Part shown: positions 12,170 through 41,961 of the stretch, in pieces | How positions within the stretch are numbered: position 1 is the stretch's first letter | How the letters are laid out: each line of letters begins with the position of its first letter | Assembly: GCF_011299595.1 (NCBI RefSeq) | Contig: NZ_CP049867.1 | Span: forward strand, 2,108,001 to 2,172,000 | DNA: 64,000 bases | Source of the DNA: Nocardioides sp. HDW12B | Lineage (GTDB): Bacteria; Actinomycetota; Actinomycetes; Propionibacteriales; Nocardioidaceae | Reading direction: 5' to 3' | Program-made: the position numbers and the translations under genes | The notes under the pieces: generated by a model | What the model was told of the DNA's origin: nothing | Seen by the model: only the letters and a program-made list of their open reading frames with translations | The model's database searches: none

Positions 12170-12200
12170 CCCTGCCCCCATTCCGGGCTGCTCGGCCGCT

Positions 12201-12251
12201 CGTCATACGTCTGGACGGTTTCTGCCGCGAGAACTGTCCAGACGTATGACG
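12201..12251. terminator. Bidirectional terminator hairpin
   Basis: A perfect 16-bp stem (CGTCATACGTCTGGAC at 12201-12216 and its complement at 12236-12251) with partial pairing continuing inward. It separates the convergent DJ-1 and PKD-protein genes. The AT content of the stem is higher than in the surrounding sequence. Confidence 0.7.
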
Positions 12252-12263
12252 AAGGCACTGCGG

Positions 12264-29771: not shown

Positions 29772-31439
29772 ATGAGGCGACCAAAGAGTTTGCTCTTTGC
29801 GATTCCGCTCACCCTTGCCCTGGCCCTGACGGCGTGCAGCGCCGAGTCCGACTCGTCGGGCGGTGACAGCAGCTCGGAGAGCTCGAGCAGCTCCGAGGGC
29901 GGCGAGTCCGCCGGCACCGCCGGCGGCACGTTCAGCGTGTCCAGCAGCGAGCCCGAGGCGTTCGCGCCGACGAGCAACTGCTACTCCTCCGACTGCTCCC
30001 AGATCATCAACGCGGTCTTCACCGGCCTGCTGAAGGTGGACCCGGAGACCTCGGAGCCCATCTACACCGGTGCGGAGTCGTTCGAGTCCGAGGACGGCCA
30101 GAACTGGACCATCAAGCTGAAGGACGGCTTCACCTTCCACAACGGTGAGCCGGTCGACGCCGAGTCCTACGTCCGCGCGTGGAACTACGCCGCGAACGGC
30201 GCCAACGCCACCCAGCTCGGCTTCTTCTTCTCCAAGGTCGAGGGCTACGACGACCTCCAGGGCGAGAACCCCAAGGCCGAGGAGATGTCGGGCCTCACGG
30301 TCGTCGACGACCTGACCTTCGAGGTCGCGCTCAGCGAGCCGTTCTCGCAGTTCCCCCTCACCATGAGCTACACCCCGGCCGCCGCGCCGATGGCTCAGGA
30401 GTGCATGGACGACATCAAGGCCTGCAACGAGCAGCCCATCGGCAACGGTCCCTACCAGTTCGCCGAGAAGTGGAACCACAACCAGTCCATCACGCTGGAG
30501 AAGTACGCCGACTACTCGGACGAGGAGACCGCCGGTCTCGCCGACGGCATGGAGTTCAAGATCTACGCCGACCTGAGCACGGCCTTCCGTGACTTCCAGG
30601 GTGGCAACCTCGACATCGTCATCCCCGACCCGTCGCAGATCCCCCAGGCCCGCGCGCAGTACGCCGACAGCCTCCTCGAGGTCGACAGCGGCTCGTTCGC
30701 CTACTTCGGCTTCCCGTTCTACGAGCCGGACTTCCAGAAGCCCGAGATCCGTCAGGCCCTGTCGCTGGCCATCGACCGCCAGTCGATCATCGACAACGTC
30801 CTGCAGGGTCGCTTCATCCCCGCGACCGACGTCATCTCGCCCTTCGTCCCGGGCTCGCGCGACGACGCCTGCGAGTTCTGCGTCTACGACCCCGACCAGG
30901 CCAAGGAGCTGTGGGACGGCGCCGGCGGCGTCGAGGGCAACGAGATCTCGATCTGGTTCAACAACGACGGTGGCCACGAGCAGTGGGTCAAGGCCATGGC
31001 TCAGGGCTGGCAGCAGGACCTCGGCGTCGACTTCACCTTCAAGTCGCAGCCGTTCACGCCGTACCTCAAGGCGCTGGGCACCCAGTCCGAGGTCGACGGT
31101 CCCTACCGTCTCGGCTGGCTGCCGGACTACCCGTCCCCGCAGAACTACCTCGACCCGCTGTACGGCGAGGGTTCGTCGAACTACGGCAAGTGGGGCGAGG
31201 GCGACTCCGCCGCGGACCAGCAGGAGTTCCTGGACCTGGTCAACGAGGGTGACGCCGCCGCCACGGTCGAGGAGGGCATCCCGTCCTACCAGGCCGCTGC
31301 CGACGTCGTGCTCGACAACATGGTCGTCATCCCGCTGTGGTTCGGCCAGACGTTCTACGTGATGAGCGAGAACGTCGAGAACGTCAAGTACAGCCCGACC
31401 GACCAGCTGCTGCTCGACGAGATCAGCGTCACCAGCTGA
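29772..31439 (+). CDS. Peptide ABC transporter substrate-binding lipoprotein
   Basis: This 555-aa extracellular solute-binding protein of family 5 (OppA/DppA type) captures oligopeptides or similar solutes for import. The lipobox LTAC places the lipidated Cys at residue 22. A Ser/Gly/Glu-rich linker (residues 25-55) follows, then the bilobed domain with TFHNGEPVDAESYVRAWNYA, the conserved family segment. GGAGG lies 6 nt before the ATG. It is the first of five genes; a stable hairpin follows its stop, a common way to keep binding-protein mRNA more abundant than that of the permeases. Confidence 0.92.
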   Translation: MRRPKSLLFAIPLTLALALTACSAESDSSGGDSSSESSSSSEGGESAGTAGGTFSVSSSEPEAFAPTSNCYSSDCSQIINAVFTGLLKVDPETSEPIYTGAESFESEDGQNWTIKLKDGFTFHNGEPVDAESYVRAWNYAANGANATQLGFFFSKVEGYDDLQGENPKAEEMSGLTVVDDLTFEVALSEPFSQFPLTMSYTPAAAPMAQECMDDIKACNEQPIGNGPYQFAEKWNHNQSITLEKYADYSDEETAGLADGMEFKIYADLSTAFRDFQGGNLDIVIPDPSQIPQARAQYADSLLEVDSGSFAYFGFPFYEPDFQKPEIRQALSLAIDRQSIIDNVLQGRFIPATDVISPFVPGSRDDACEFCVYDPDQAKELWDGAGGVEGNEISIWFNNDGGHEQWVKAMAQGWQQDLGVDFTFKSQPFTPYLKALGTQSEVDGPYRLGWLPDYPSPQNYLDPLYGEGSSNYGKWGEGDSAADQQEFLDLVNEGDAAATVEEGIPSYQAAADVVLDNMVVIPLWFGQTFYVMSENVENVKYSPTDQLLLDEISVTS

Positions 31440-31450
31440 TCAAGCCCCTG

Positions 31451-31487
31451 TGCGGGTGTGGACCGGTTCACCTGGTCCACACCCGCA
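31451..31487 (+). terminator. Intra-operon hairpin after the binding-protein gene
   Basis: A perfect 14-bp stem (TGCGGGTGTGGACC and its complement) with a 9-nt loop, 12 nt after the binding-protein stop and 67 nt before the permease ATG. It is probably an RNA-stabilising or partial-termination element that lowers expression of the downstream permeases and ATPases. Confidence 0.6.
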
Positions 31488-31554
31488 CACCCTTGTACGC
31501 TTCCATGCGCCCTCATGACGGGGCTGGAAGTCGAGCCCCCCAGAAGGGATCTCC

Positions 31555-32556
31555 ATGGGCCGCTACACCGCGCGTCGTCTGCTGCAGTTCATCCCGGTCA
31601 TCCTCGGCACCCTGTTCCTGCTGCACTACCTGCAGACGCTCTCGTTCCAGATCAACGGCAACCCCATCCGCGCGCTCTTCGGTGACCGGCAGCCGCCGCA
31701 GGAGACCATCGACAACATCACGCGCGCCTACGGCCTCGACGACCCGTGCCTCGAGCAGCCGGGCAACCCGTGCCTCGGCATGTTCGTCGACCGGCTCAAG
31801 AACTTGGCCACCGGCAACTTCGGCCAGGACTTCAACGGTCGCGACGTCCTCACGCTGATCGTCGAGGCCCTCCCCTTCACGTTGAAGATGACCTTCCTCG
31901 CGGTCGTCTTCGAGGCCGTCATCGGCATCGTCGCCGGCGTCCTGGCCGGCCTCCGCAAGGACAAGCTCACCGACAATGTCGTGCGCATCTCGACCACGCT
32001 GGTCATCTCGGTGCCGATCTTCGTGCTCGGTGTCCTCGTGCAGATCTTCCTCGGCCTCTACTTCGGCAACTGGCTGAAGACGCGCGAGGTGCCCGACGCG
32101 CTGAAGGCGACCTTCTCGGTGGCCTACCAGGAGGACTACCCCTGGGCCAGCCTGGTGATCCCGGCCTTCGTGCTCGGTGCCCTCTCGCTGGGCTTCATCG
32201 CACGACTCACCCGCACCAGCCTCATCGAGAGCCTGCGCTCGGACTACGTCCGCACCGCGCGCGCCAAGGGCCTGAAGCAGAGCCGCGTCGTCGGCGTCCA
32301 CGCGCTGCGCAACTCGCTGATCCCGGTCGTGACCTTCATCGGCATCGACATCGGCGCCCTCATGGGCGGTGCGCTCATCACCGAGGGCATCTTCAACATC
32401 CCCGGCATCGGCGGACTCACCTTCCGCTCGATCCGCAACGGCGAGACCCCGGTCATCCTGGCGGTCGTGACGCTCCTGACGCTGGTCTTCCTCGTCGCGT
32501 CGCTCCTCGTCGACCTGCTCTACGCCGTCCTCGACCCAAGGATCCGTTATGAGTGA
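31555..32556 (+). CDS. Peptide ABC transporter permease (OppB/DppB type)
   Basis: A 333-aa inner-membrane permease with six predicted helices. The first follows MGRYTARRLLQFIPVILGTL, as in DppB/OppB, and the BPD-transp-1 domain contains the EAA-loop region RSDYVRTARAKGLKQSRVVGVHALRNSL that docks on the ATPases. It pairs with the next permease to form the channel. Between helices 1 and 2 is a periplasmic loop of about 70 residues with two Cys (DPCLEQPGNPCLG), which may form a disulfide. GAAGGG precedes the ATG. Its end overlaps the next gene by 8 nt. Confidence 0.93.
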   Translation: MGRYTARRLLQFIPVILGTLFLLHYLQTLSFQINGNPIRALFGDRQPPQETIDNITRAYGLDDPCLEQPGNPCLGMFVDRLKNLATGNFGQDFNGRDVLTLIVEALPFTLKMTFLAVVFEAVIGIVAGVLAGLRKDKLTDNVVRISTTLVISVPIFVLGVLVQIFLGLYFGNWLKTREVPDALKATFSVAYQEDYPWASLVIPAFVLGALSLGFIARLTRTSLIESLRSDYVRTARAKGLKQSRVVGVHALRNSLIPVVTFIGIDIGALMGGALITEGIFNIPGIGGLTFRSIRNGETPVILAVVTLLTLVFLVASLLVDLLYAVLDPRIRYE

Positions 32557-33546
32557 CTTCTCGCAGCCGATGCCCGGTCACCAGCCCGCGATCGAGGGCG
32601 AGGCGACCCGTGGCGGGAACGAGCCCCCCTCCGGCAAGAAGCGCAAGTCCGGCGGCAAGAGCCTCTGGGCCGACGCTCGCAGCGACCTCCTGCGCAGCCC
32701 GATGTTCGTCACCGCCCTGCTCATCCTGCTGGTGGTGCTCTCCTGGGCGGTCGTGCCCGGCGTCTGGGCCACCCAGGGCCGCACCGAGTGCGACATCGGC
32801 GAGTCGAACCTGCCTCCGACCTGGTGGCCGTTCAGCCTGCCGCCGGGCATCACCGAGGACCGTCTCGTCGACGGTCACCTCTTCGGCACCACGACGCTCG
32901 GGTGCGACATGTACTCCGAGATCATCTACGGCGCCCGCCCCTCGATCATCGTGGCGGTGACGGTCACCCTCTTCACGGTGCTCATCGGCACCACGCTGGG
33001 CATCCTCTCCGGCTACTTCGGCGGCTGGACCGACACGATCATCTCGCGCATCACCGACATCGTGCTGGGCCTGCCGTTCCTGCTGGGCGCGCTGGTCTTC
33101 CTGGCGCTGCTGAAGTCGCAGGGCATCATCCCGCTCACGATCGTGCTGGTGGCGCTGGGGTGGACCTCGATGAGCCGCATCGTGCGCGGCAGCGTGCTGT
33201 CACTGCGCGACCAGGACTTCGTCGACGCCGCCCGCGCCATGGGCGCCAGCAACAGCCGGATCATCCTGCGCCACATCCTGCCCAACTCGTTGGGACCGGT
33301 CATCGTGCTCGCCACGCTCTACGTCGGCTCCTTCGTGGCCGCCGAGGCGACCCTGACCTTCTTGGGCGTGGGACTGCCCCAGGGCGAGACGCTGTCGTGG
33401 GGCATCACGATCCAGGAGGGCCAGAACCTCGCGACGGCCGGCTTCAGCCACCTGCTGGTCTTCCCCTGCATCGCCCTGATCCTGACCGTGCTCAGCTTCA
33501 TCCTCATGGGTGACAAGCTGCGCGACGCCCTCGACCCGAAGGGACG

Positions 33547-33550
<4 letters not shown>
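32549..33550 (+). CDS. Peptide ABC transporter permease (OppC/DppC type)
   Basis: This 333-aa permease has an N-terminal cytoplasmic Lys-rich extension (GKKRKSGGKS), a first helix at about residues 50-70, a large extracytoplasmic loop with two Cys, and the conserved C-terminal transport domain including RDQDFVDAARAMGASNSRII (the EAA motif). The FLGVGLPQGETLSWG segment is typical of the DppC/OppC family. It is coupled to the upstream permease by an 8-nt overlap and to the downstream ATPase by 4 nt. Confidence 0.93.
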
Positions 33551-34622
<1,072 letters not shown>

Positions 34623-34626
<4 letters not shown>

Positions 34627-35645
34627 GCCCCATGACCGACGAGGTCGTGCTGTCCGCCGAGAACGTCGTCAAGCACTTCCCCATCCAGGAGGGCATCCTC
34701 TTCAAGCGCACCGTCGGGCAGGTCAAGGCCGTCGACGGCGTCTCGCTGGAGCTGCGCAAGGGCGAGACCCTCGGTGTGGTCGGCGAGTCAGGCTGCGGCA
34801 AGTCGACCCTGGCGCGCGTGCTGATGGGCCTCATCCCCGCGACGTCGGGCTCGGTGAGGCTCCACGGCGAGGAGCTGGTGGGCATGTCGCAGAAGCGCCT
34901 GCGCGCCGTACGCCGCAACGTGCAGATCATCTTCCAGGACCCCTACACCTCGCTCGACCCGCGCATGAGCGTCGGCAAGATCGTCGGGGAGCCCTTCGAG
35001 ATCCACCCCGACGTGGCGCCCAAGGGCTCGCGCCGGCAGAAGGTGATGGAGCTGCTCGAGGTGGTCGGGCTGAACCCCGAGCACATCAACCGCTACCCCC
35101 ACCAGTTCAGCGGTGGCCAGCGTCAGCGCATCGGCATCGCCCGCGCGCTCGCGCTGCGACCGAGCGTCATCATCTGCGACGAGCCGGTCTCCGCGCTCGA
35201 CGTGTCGGTGCAGGCGCAGGTGGTCAACCTGCTCGGCGACCTGCAGAAGGAGTTCGACCTCTCCTACGTGTTCGTCGCGCACGACCTGTCGGTGGTGCGC
35301 CACATCTCCAACCGCGTCGCCGTGATGTACCTCGGCAAGCTGGCCGAGATCGGCAACGAGCACGAGATCTACGAGCAGCCCATGCACCCCTACACGCAGG
35401 CGCTGCTGTCCGCCGTACCCGTGCCGGACCCGACGCTGCGTGGCAAGCGCGAGCAGATCATGCTCGAGGGAGACCTGCCGTCGCCGGCCAACCCGCCCTC
35501 GGGCTGCCGCTTCCGCACCCGCTGCTGGAAGGCCCAGGACATCTGCGCCGAGCAGGAGCCCCCGCTGGCGCCCCACGGCGCCGCCGGCCAGCTGGCCGCC
35601 TGCCACTTCGCCGAGCACCGCGACGTCGTCCACGCCACCCAGTAG
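34623..35645 (+). CDS. Peptide ABC transporter ATPase (OppF/DppF type)
   Basis: The second ATPase of the importer, 340 aa, with Walker A GESGCGKSTLARVL, signature FSGGQRQRIGIARAL and Walker B VIICDEPVSALDVSV. The KHFPIQEGILFKRTVGQVKAV opening is typical of OppF. The C-terminal Cys motif GCRFRTRCWKAQDIC with a distant ACHF is present, as in its partner. The ATG at 34623 overlaps the preceding stop by 4 nt. It is the last gene of the operon and is followed by two overlapping long palindromes before the convergent aspS. Confidence 0.94.
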
Positions 35646-35657
35646 GGCGTTGGGGCT

Positions 35658-35689
35658 GCCGGTTTCACTAGGTACCTAGTGAAACCGGC
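35658..35689. terminator. 32-bp perfect palindrome downstream of the peptide transporter
   Basis: A 16-bp arm (GCCGGTTTCACTAGGT) meets its exact complement with no spacer at a central GGTACC. It lies 13 nt after the last transporter gene. It shares its right arm end (AAACCGGC, 35682-35689) with the next palindrome, so only one of the two can fold at a time. Confidence 0.75.
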
Positions 35690-35727
35690 GCTTCCCGAGC
35701 GAAGTTTCGCTCGGGAAGCGCCGGTTT
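35682..35727. terminator. 46-nt hairpin overlapping the first palindrome
   Basis: Two perfect 22-nt arms (35682-35703 and 35706-35727) with only a GT between them, beginning AAACCGGCGCTTCCCGAGCG. The outer 8 bp are shared with the preceding palindrome. It separates convergent genes and probably terminates both aspS and the transporter operon. Confidence 0.78.
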
Positions 35728-35757
35728 CGTGCGGGAAGCACTCCCGTCGTACGTCGC

Positions 35758-37559
<1,802 letters not shown>

Positions 37560-37563
<4 letters not shown>

Positions 37564-41604: not shown

Positions 41605-41634
41605 CCCCGCCCCTCGACCGGTCGAGGGGCGGGG
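41605..41634. terminator. 30-bp perfect palindromic terminator
   Basis: CCCCGCCCCTCGACC (41605-41619) is followed immediately by its exact complement (41620-41634), beginning on the base after the DUF349 gene stop. It is separated by 9 nt from repeat array B. Confidence 0.8.
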
Positions 41635-41643
41635 CGTGTGTGC

Positions 41644-41719
41644 GCGAAACGTCGCCCGTGTACGCGCGAAATGTCGGCTGTGTACGCTCGAAGCGTCGGC
41701 TGTGCACGTACGAGAGGTC
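41644..41719 (+). repeat. 22-bp tandem repeat array B, downstream of the DUF349 gene
   Basis: Three 22-nt units start at 41644, 41666 and 41688, with a decayed fourth from 41710. The core (TGTACGCGCGAAACGTC and variants) is the same as in array A and has the same orientation relative to the upstream gene. The 5-nt linker differs from that of A. Confidence 0.9.
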
Positions 41720-41788
41720 GCTCACGCGCAGCTTAGTGATCTCCGGCGCGGCCACGCTGCGTCGCATTCCCGGCCGGAGGTGCGCGAG

Positions 41789-41933
41789 CGACGCTTCGCG
41801 TGAACACACGTGACGCTTCGCGCGTACACACCTGACGCTTCGCGCGTACACACCTGACGCTTCGCGCGTACATGAGCGACGCTTCGCGCGTACATGAGCG
41901 ACGCTTCGCGCGTACACGCGACGTTTCGCGCGG
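41789..41933 (-). repeat. 22-bp tandem repeat array C, downstream of rel
   Basis: Six units (from 41789, 41811, 41833, 41855, 41877, 41899; the last is 20 nt) and a partial seventh. On the minus strand, the coding strand of rel, they read with the same core as arrays A and B. The array starts about 29 nt after the rel stop. Between B and C, 41720-41788, are matching inverted segments (GTCGCTCACGCGCA against TGCGCGAGCGAC; CTCCGG against CCGGAG), so B-spacer-C forms one large imperfect palindrome. Confidence 0.92.
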
Positions 41934-41961
41934 GGTGGAGGGGGAGGAGAGTTCTGCGGGG

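Follow-up and report, generated by a model that had tools for sequence, protein, structure and literature searches.

A probable copy of a dispersed REPIN-like palindromic repeat at the oppF/aspS junction of Nocardioides sp. HDW12B

The double palindrome that lies between an oppF-like gene and aspS in Nocardioides sp. HDW12B probably belongs to a dispersed family of REPIN-like palindromic repeats of Nocardioidaceae, which appears to have spread in the manner of a small mobile element. We infer that the palindrome of such a repeat, P, would be recognised by a DNA-processing protein that acts in trans, and that its hairpin, H, would hold the two ends at a distance and able to fold, allowing elements to be copied within each genome. 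Insertions behind stop codons would be tolerated or favoured because the tandem hairpins may terminate transcription, or stop 3' exonucleases, coming from either side of a convergent junction.

The double palindrome at the oppF/aspS junction

The features of the junction are given by position in the window, the whole 64-kb stretch of DNA that was analysed.

29772-35645, forward strand: opp operon (SBP_bac_5, two permeases, two ATPases), inverted relative to the congener G002
34623-35645, forward strand: oppF-like gene (ABC_tran and oligo_HPY), last of the peptide-transport operon
35658-35689: P, a spacerless palindrome of 32 bp with 16-nt arms (35658-35673 and 35674-35689), 100% complementary in the repeat search
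35666-35681: the 16-bp P core, CACTAGGTACCTAGTG, found within one mismatch in 4 of 341 family genomes
35681-35728: H, a hairpin with 23-nt arms (35681-35703 and 35706-35728), 100% complementary, with 2 nt between them
35722-35740, forward strand: type A tail, CGGTTTCGTGCGGGAAGCA, similar to the right half of H (copies compared by eye)
35732-35746, forward strand: a third small hairpin, CGGGAAGCACTCCCG, predicted in the sense RNA from folding only
35758-37563, reverse strand: aspS, aspartyl-tRNA synthetase, convergent with the opp operon

P and H occupy most of the 112 nt (35646-35757) that separate the oppF-like gene from aspS, two convergent genes, and the P core begins 20 nt behind the oppF-like stop codon. 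The earlier note had read two overlapping palindromes here from the letters of the DNA, and both are real. The 32-bp spacerless palindrome was confirmed, and it is not a random occurrence: at even base composition the arithmetic expectation for a perfect 32-bp palindrome is 64000 x 4^-16 = 1.5e-5 per window, and a search of the 64-kb window for CACTAGGTACCTAGTG with up to three mismatches returned no other match (shuffled mean 0.05). The hairpin and the overlap were likewise present, with arms of 23 nt instead of the 22 nt first given and 9 common bases (35681-35689) instead of 8. The segment GCCGGTTT does occur in both outer arms, at 35658-35665 and 35720-35727. The instability of long spacerless palindromes, from which a function had been argued, is a poor argument for a palindrome of 32 bp.

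Two other convergent gaps of the window also hold repeats. In the first (41605-41961) there are two 22-bp tandem arrays in opposite orientation, belonging to families of 3 and 6 registered copies, together with a 15+15 spacerless palindrome (41605-41634); this repeat differs from P and H. The second contains a hairpin with 21-bp arms (95%) at 12200-12252, whose 13-nt word CATACGTCTGGAC was present in 0 of the 192 loci examined, giving no sign of a dispersed family there.

A repeat dispersed through the genome

The search for the same double palindrome elsewhere, which had been proposed as a check, showed that it recurs across the organism's own chromosome (G000; 4,192,138 bp). The exact 22-mer TTTCACTAGGTACCTAGTGAAA was found 10 times in this genome and 7 times in its congener G002, and in none of the remaining 56 of the 58 genomes searched. 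With up to three mismatches, the 22-mer gave 60 sites over the whole chromosome and 0 in a reversed-sequence control. The loci examined in G000 comprise 59 sites plus that of the window, a total that agrees with the genome-wide 60 in number only. These 60 P sites fall in 38 loci and make up 45 elements, which we sorted under labels of our own: 28 of type A (P-H-tail), the window copy among them, 15 of type B (P-H-P), and two lone P sites (L041, L067). When copies were compared by eye, type B elements had a second P where type A has its tail. One other copy is 99% identical to the window element over 85 bp. In G002, where the loci examined have 60 sites within one mismatch, a total that equals that of the family-wide core search, 37 loci hold 40 elements (18 type A and 22 type B). 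The word GTACGNCG was often seen by eye behind type A tails; we do not claim it as part of the element because it is common in the window, where it occurs 119 times (61 and 58 on the two strands).

By eye, type B is an inverted repeat along its length of about 96 bp. Its two cores are held at a nearly invariant distance: among pairs less than 100 bp apart the spacing was 62 bp in 15 of 15 cases in G000, 22 of 22 in G002, 2 of 2 in G125 and 11 of 12 in loci of Nocardioides speluncae, the one exception being 61 bp (L080); this amounts to 50 of 51 close pairs. Such a spacing would correspond to about six turns of B-DNA.

Taxonomic spread and turnover

Among 341 genomes of the family, the core CACTAGGTACCTAGTG was found within one mismatch at 59 sites in G000, 60 in G002, 39 in G338 and 5 in G125, and at none in the other 337. 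The four carriers belong to three genera (labelled g1, g5 and g7), while the congeners G001, G003 and G004 have neither the core nor, by blastn at E <= 1e-6, the element. A search of GTDB r220 contigs for the exact 18-mer gave 24 stretches, 23 of them from N. speluncae, a member of Nocardioidaceae, and one from a Dysgonomonas MAG. The latter match (L079, 2470-2487) has no H nearby by eye and is probably due to chance. G338 is probably N. speluncae itself, judging by the similar flanks of L166 and L083.

Most element positions differ between genomes, even within one genus. Eight of the 64 gene 3' ends beside G000 elements, at five loci, are reciprocal best matches of element-side ends in G002, so that 5 of 38 loci are common to the two; 1 of the 64 matches an end in the N. 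speluncae loci, and the element-side end of metK in G002 matches one in G125. By a rough estimate, about one common locus would be expected by chance between G000 and G002; the excess over it suggests that some copies were inherited or that hot spots exist.

At the locus of the window, the gene order differs between congeners. In G002 the opp operon stands in tandem with aspS, opposite to its orientation in the window, with the same genes flanking both sides, and in G003 opp-type genes are likewise in tandem behind aspS. This difference in orientation between G000 and G002 implies an inversion of about 6 kb, which either gave rise to the convergent oppF/aspS junction in the G000 line or was reverted elsewhere; the element occupies this junction, which is apparently new to the G000 line. 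A role of inverted copies in the inversion was considered and dropped: the two breakpoint regions have no word of 9 or more nucleotides in common, and the other breakpoint carries no inverted copy. Absence from sister strains, together with unchanged transcript ends, had been set as a test that could refute a function. The element is indeed missing from the 330 nt behind aspS in congeners G001-G004, but the region behind aspS is there not convergent, which is why the element is lacking at that locus.

Position relative to genes

According to gene calls made with a codon-usage script, not by annotation, the elements are intergenic, a few of them overlapping the last bases of a called gene. Convergent gaps are strongly preferred. 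In G000, 26 of the 38 loci are convergent, 10 tandem and 2 divergent (26 of 40 are convergent if each of the two loci whose inverted copies enclose a gene is counted as two), against a background of 54 convergent pairs among 372 adjacent pairs (14.5%; 9.7% of intergenic bases). This background comes from a 464-kb sample of G000 that includes the window and 20 further stretches at steps of about 200 kb, one hand-chosen step of 250 kb shifting the later ones. Counted by pairs, the binomial probability of 26 in 38 is 7e-14. For G002, 19 of the 36 classifiable loci (37 in all) are convergent, a probability of 8e-8 when the G000 background rate is used.

Within the gap, the elements are oriented and placed with some precision. 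Of the type A elements with H, 24 of 28 in G000 have their P side towards a gene 3' end and the remaining 4 towards a 5' end; for G002 the figures are 14 of 18 and 3, with 1 element lacking a called gene. For those pointing to a 3' end, the distance from stop codon to core start was 11-25 nt in 21 of 24 cases in G000 (28, 37 and 53 nt in the others) and in 12 of 14 in G002 (-6 and 6 nt in the others). All 15 type B elements of G000 adjoin a gene 3' end, 9 of them on both sides; in G002, 20 of 22 do so, 10 of them on both sides.

Among the 25 families listed of the 146 matched in Pfam by 76 flanking proteins of G000, the flanking genes are mixed and mostly metabolic, and none is a transposase; nine neighbouring proteins scanned in G125 were ordinary, e.g. 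serine hydroxymethyltransferase and S-adenosylmethionine synthetase. This mixture bears on the possibility that the repeat is an operator of a regulator or of a chromosome-organising protein that uses 3' ends, with P as a dimer site and paired P sites, about six turns apart, bound cooperatively. The conserved palindromic core, the fixed 62-bp spacing and the presence of sites across the whole chromosome would suit such a protein, but divergent loci, at 2 of 38 in G000 and 3 of 37 in G002, are few, and the mixed, mostly metabolic neighbours among the families listed speak against it as well. We therefore regard an operator as improbable.

Conservation of P and variation of H

The core changes little between species, while the sequence of H varies with its pairing mostly kept. 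Outside the window, 18 of the 59 G000 sites have the exact core and 41 differ, 40 of them by one base; the core is exact at 56 of 62 sites in G002, at 28 of 36 sites from N. speluncae and at none of the 4 sites in two loci of G125. Over the four species, 102 of 161 are exact and 153 of 161 lie within one base, figures that are flattered because the loci were found via the core. Likeness of H was 0.81 within G000 and 0.83 within G002, 0.74 between these two, 0.57 and 0.59, respectively, between each of them and N. speluncae, and 0.63 within N. speluncae. That a core is kept while the neighbouring H differs between species fits a sequence-specific reading of P, and here the suggestion of a recognition site, or of some function beyond plain termination, gained support. 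The higher likeness of H within genomes would be unexpected of an operator.

Pairing was evaluated over the P and H helices together in 24 hand-chosen elements (14 from G000, 6 from G002 and 4 from N. speluncae). In these rows 93.4% of the cells were paired, falling to 46% or less when the partner was slid by 1-3 columns. Cells changed on both sides numbered 32, compared with 10.7 after shuffling (0 of 500 shuffles as high), and covariation was 0.189 compared with 0.099 (0 of 500), and at most 0.061 with the partner slid. The number of further pair types did not rise above the shuffles (19 vs 17.4; 116 of 500), and the measures other than this count may be inflated by related rows. In 5-6 of the 24 rows, columns 48-51 and 60-63 at the apex of H do not pair, because variants of its two halves, left and right, occur in mixed combinations.

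The H halves of G000 (e.g. L033, L034, L036, L049) show recurring apex variants, GAGC, GAAC, GCAC and TGAC with their complements, mixed like a mosaic of half elements. Reading TTTCAC...GTGAAA as a parS-like site was considered and dropped, since the inner half is not kept in G002.

RNA folding and transcription ends

For either strand, the RNA of the 112-nt gap folds more stably than any of 200 dinucleotide shuffles (z -7.88 and -7.95), and in both cases the minimum free energy structure holds the P and H hairpins side by side. By eye, G.U as against A.C pairs favour neither strand. As P and H have bases in common, the earlier note had taken them to compete, as in an alternating terminator in which an exchange of those bases switches termination. 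The overlap is real and recurs in type A copies of G000. The predicted energetics make a switch unlikely: five partitions of the common bases, from 6 P and 21 H pairs to 14 and 13, range from -51.5 to -52.9 kcal/mol and are thus near equal, within 1.4 kcal/mol, and both hairpins coexist in the optimal fold of either strand. The overlap is, moreover, not kept between species, since G002 varies at the three bases after GTGA on the core's H side. The argument for competition is accordingly weak, and an alternating terminator can be set aside almost entirely. In the folding model the inner pairs are stable (P 0.81, H 1.0) and the outer pairs trade (P 0.38, H 0.28), which would make the overlap a sliding junction instead of a two-state switch.

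A terminator scan of 34000-37500 found 0 terminator-like sites with a U-tract; the hairpins themselves are present, followed only by TTTC behind a stem closed by CCGG. Rfam at gathering threshold returned four tRNAs only, which offer no local explanation. Standing near stop codons in gaps with little else, the tandem hairpins are likely to form a putative 3' boundary of both genes, and the element probably doubles as a putative bidirectional, U-tract-poor terminator.

Could it be that and nothing more, a bidirectional intrinsic terminator owned by the host and inherited vertically, its copies kept alike by gene conversion among terminators? The usual position of the core, 11-25 nt behind a stop and in a convergent gap, the strong hairpins predicted on both strands, and the five loci common with G002 all accord with this. 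P, however, was found in 1 of the 54 sampled convergent gaps, the window's own, with no element in the 20 sample stretches, leaving 53 such gaps to end without one; the core is missing from 337 of 341 family genomes; a conserved 16-bp palindrome and a 62-bp period are needless for plain terminators; and there is no U-tract match. A purely host-owned terminator is, in our judgement, unlikely, and a mobile-like repeat that came to lie at gene ends remains the better account.

Search for a mobiliser

No mobiliser of the kind known from REPINs was found: Y1_Tnp (PF01797) was detected at E <= 0.1 in 0 of 10 genomes, all four carriers included, and the same family gave matches in 8 of 14 control genomes (6 over the cut-off), E. 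coli among them. Nor was a vector detected, the exact 19-mer having 0 occurrences in IMG/VR and the 96-bp element no match in plasmids or phages by blastn at E <= 0.01.

Some inverted copies enclose a gene. The three such genes scanned encode a methyltransferase and two AbiEi_4 proteins, with no transposase; for a fourth pair, L116/L117, the analysis extended to reading the inner frames. The AbiEi_4-type genes are found between inverted P-H copies at different loci in the two genomes (L135, 1283-2547, in G000 and L099, 1276-2492, in G002), and their proteins are 63% identical. At L131, the G002 counterpart of L135, two inverted copies stand about 300 bp apart with no AbiEi_4 gene. AbiEi_4 was considered as an autonomous partner and rejected: all 11 genomes searched have the family, whether or not they carry the repeat, and just 2 of its 7 matches in G000 and one of the two in G002 lie beside P. 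It does not track the repeat and is kept as a lead.

A classical MITE, in which type B would be a miniature DDE transposon of about 96 bp and P together with half of H its terminal inverted repeats, would agree with the inverted repetition seen by eye along type B and with the patchy spread. It is at odds with the single P of type A and with the lack of a transposase among the three scanned genes between inverted P copies, and we consider it very unlikely; neither these genes nor the listed families of the flanking proteins revealed an autonomous copy. A more specific form of the mobile reading, to which we give some weight while thinking it doubtful, is an orphan REPIN-like family moved by an undescribed, non-Y1 enzyme that would read the 16-bp palindrome, insert behind stops and be able to carry genes, such as those of AbiEi_4 type, between inverted copies.

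Comparison with known systems

By core words or by topic, we found no description of this repeat family in the open-access literature, which leaves subscription journals and preprints mostly outside (the core words led to one unrelated paper), and the accessible portions of PMC2817692 and PMC12306157 name no Nocardioides repeat. Three kinds of known element resemble it in part. DNA uptake sequences in terminators of Neisseria and Pasteurellaceae are about 9-11 nt long and generally present in at least 1000 copies (PMC1852404); like them, the repeat is a conserved, repeated motif that forms a hairpin and is enriched between convergent genes, whereas its core is a 16-bp palindrome at 60 sites, far from uptake sequences in number. 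Clustered-hairpin intrinsic terminators are proposed to terminate with less reliance on poly-U (PMC8355165). Adjacent hairpins close behind a stop codon are a common feature, but those terminators are defined by hairpins alone, and here the sequence of P is conserved and dispersed. CGTC-tagged REPs are short palindromes often found close by in opposite orientation, without a dedicated transposase, mainly behind genes and between tandem or convergent ones (PMC3733652). Our repeat is similarly palindromic, lies behind genes and has no dedicated transposase that we could find; it differs in having no constant CGTC tag, one being seen by eye at the P foot of three G000 copies, and in combining two kinds of palindrome, P and H, in place of a single hairpin of 20-40 bp.

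The closest parallel is with the REPINs of Pseudomonas fluorescens. As described in PMC3116915, these are extragenic, occur in many copies per genome with singlets alongside doublets, and consist of a pair of conserved 16-mers, inverted with respect to each other and at a constant spacing (71 bp for GI). Their spacer is variable, with hairpin pairing kept by compensatory changes and with long-hairpin or clover folds; conserved ends, spacer length and foldability are what is retained, and the proposed mobiliser is the RAYT. The present repeat is likewise extragenic and dispersed, with 60 sites in one genome, and its type B, though not type A with its one P, has inverted 16-mers at a fixed spacing around a covarying spacer. 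Unlike those of REPINs as described there, its 16-mer is itself a perfect palindrome, the spacing is 62 bp, and copies are fewer (45 elements in G000, 40 in G002). Two features that define REP-RAYT systems were looked for: the 24-row alignment has no constant GTAG or CGTC tag at the palindrome foot, and no RAYT gene was found in the carriers. For this reason we do not count the repeat as a REP-RAYT member; it is REPIN-like in build and stands outside that system.

REP-like families have so far been tied mainly to Y1 transposases. A REPIN geometry without a Y1 gene, in a few Nocardioidaceae, makes it possible to ask in a clean system how orphan REPs are moved, and the repeat is also suited to asking how a selfish repeat becomes gene-end punctuation. 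With a core this short and this well conserved, a single pull-down could identify the protein that reads it.
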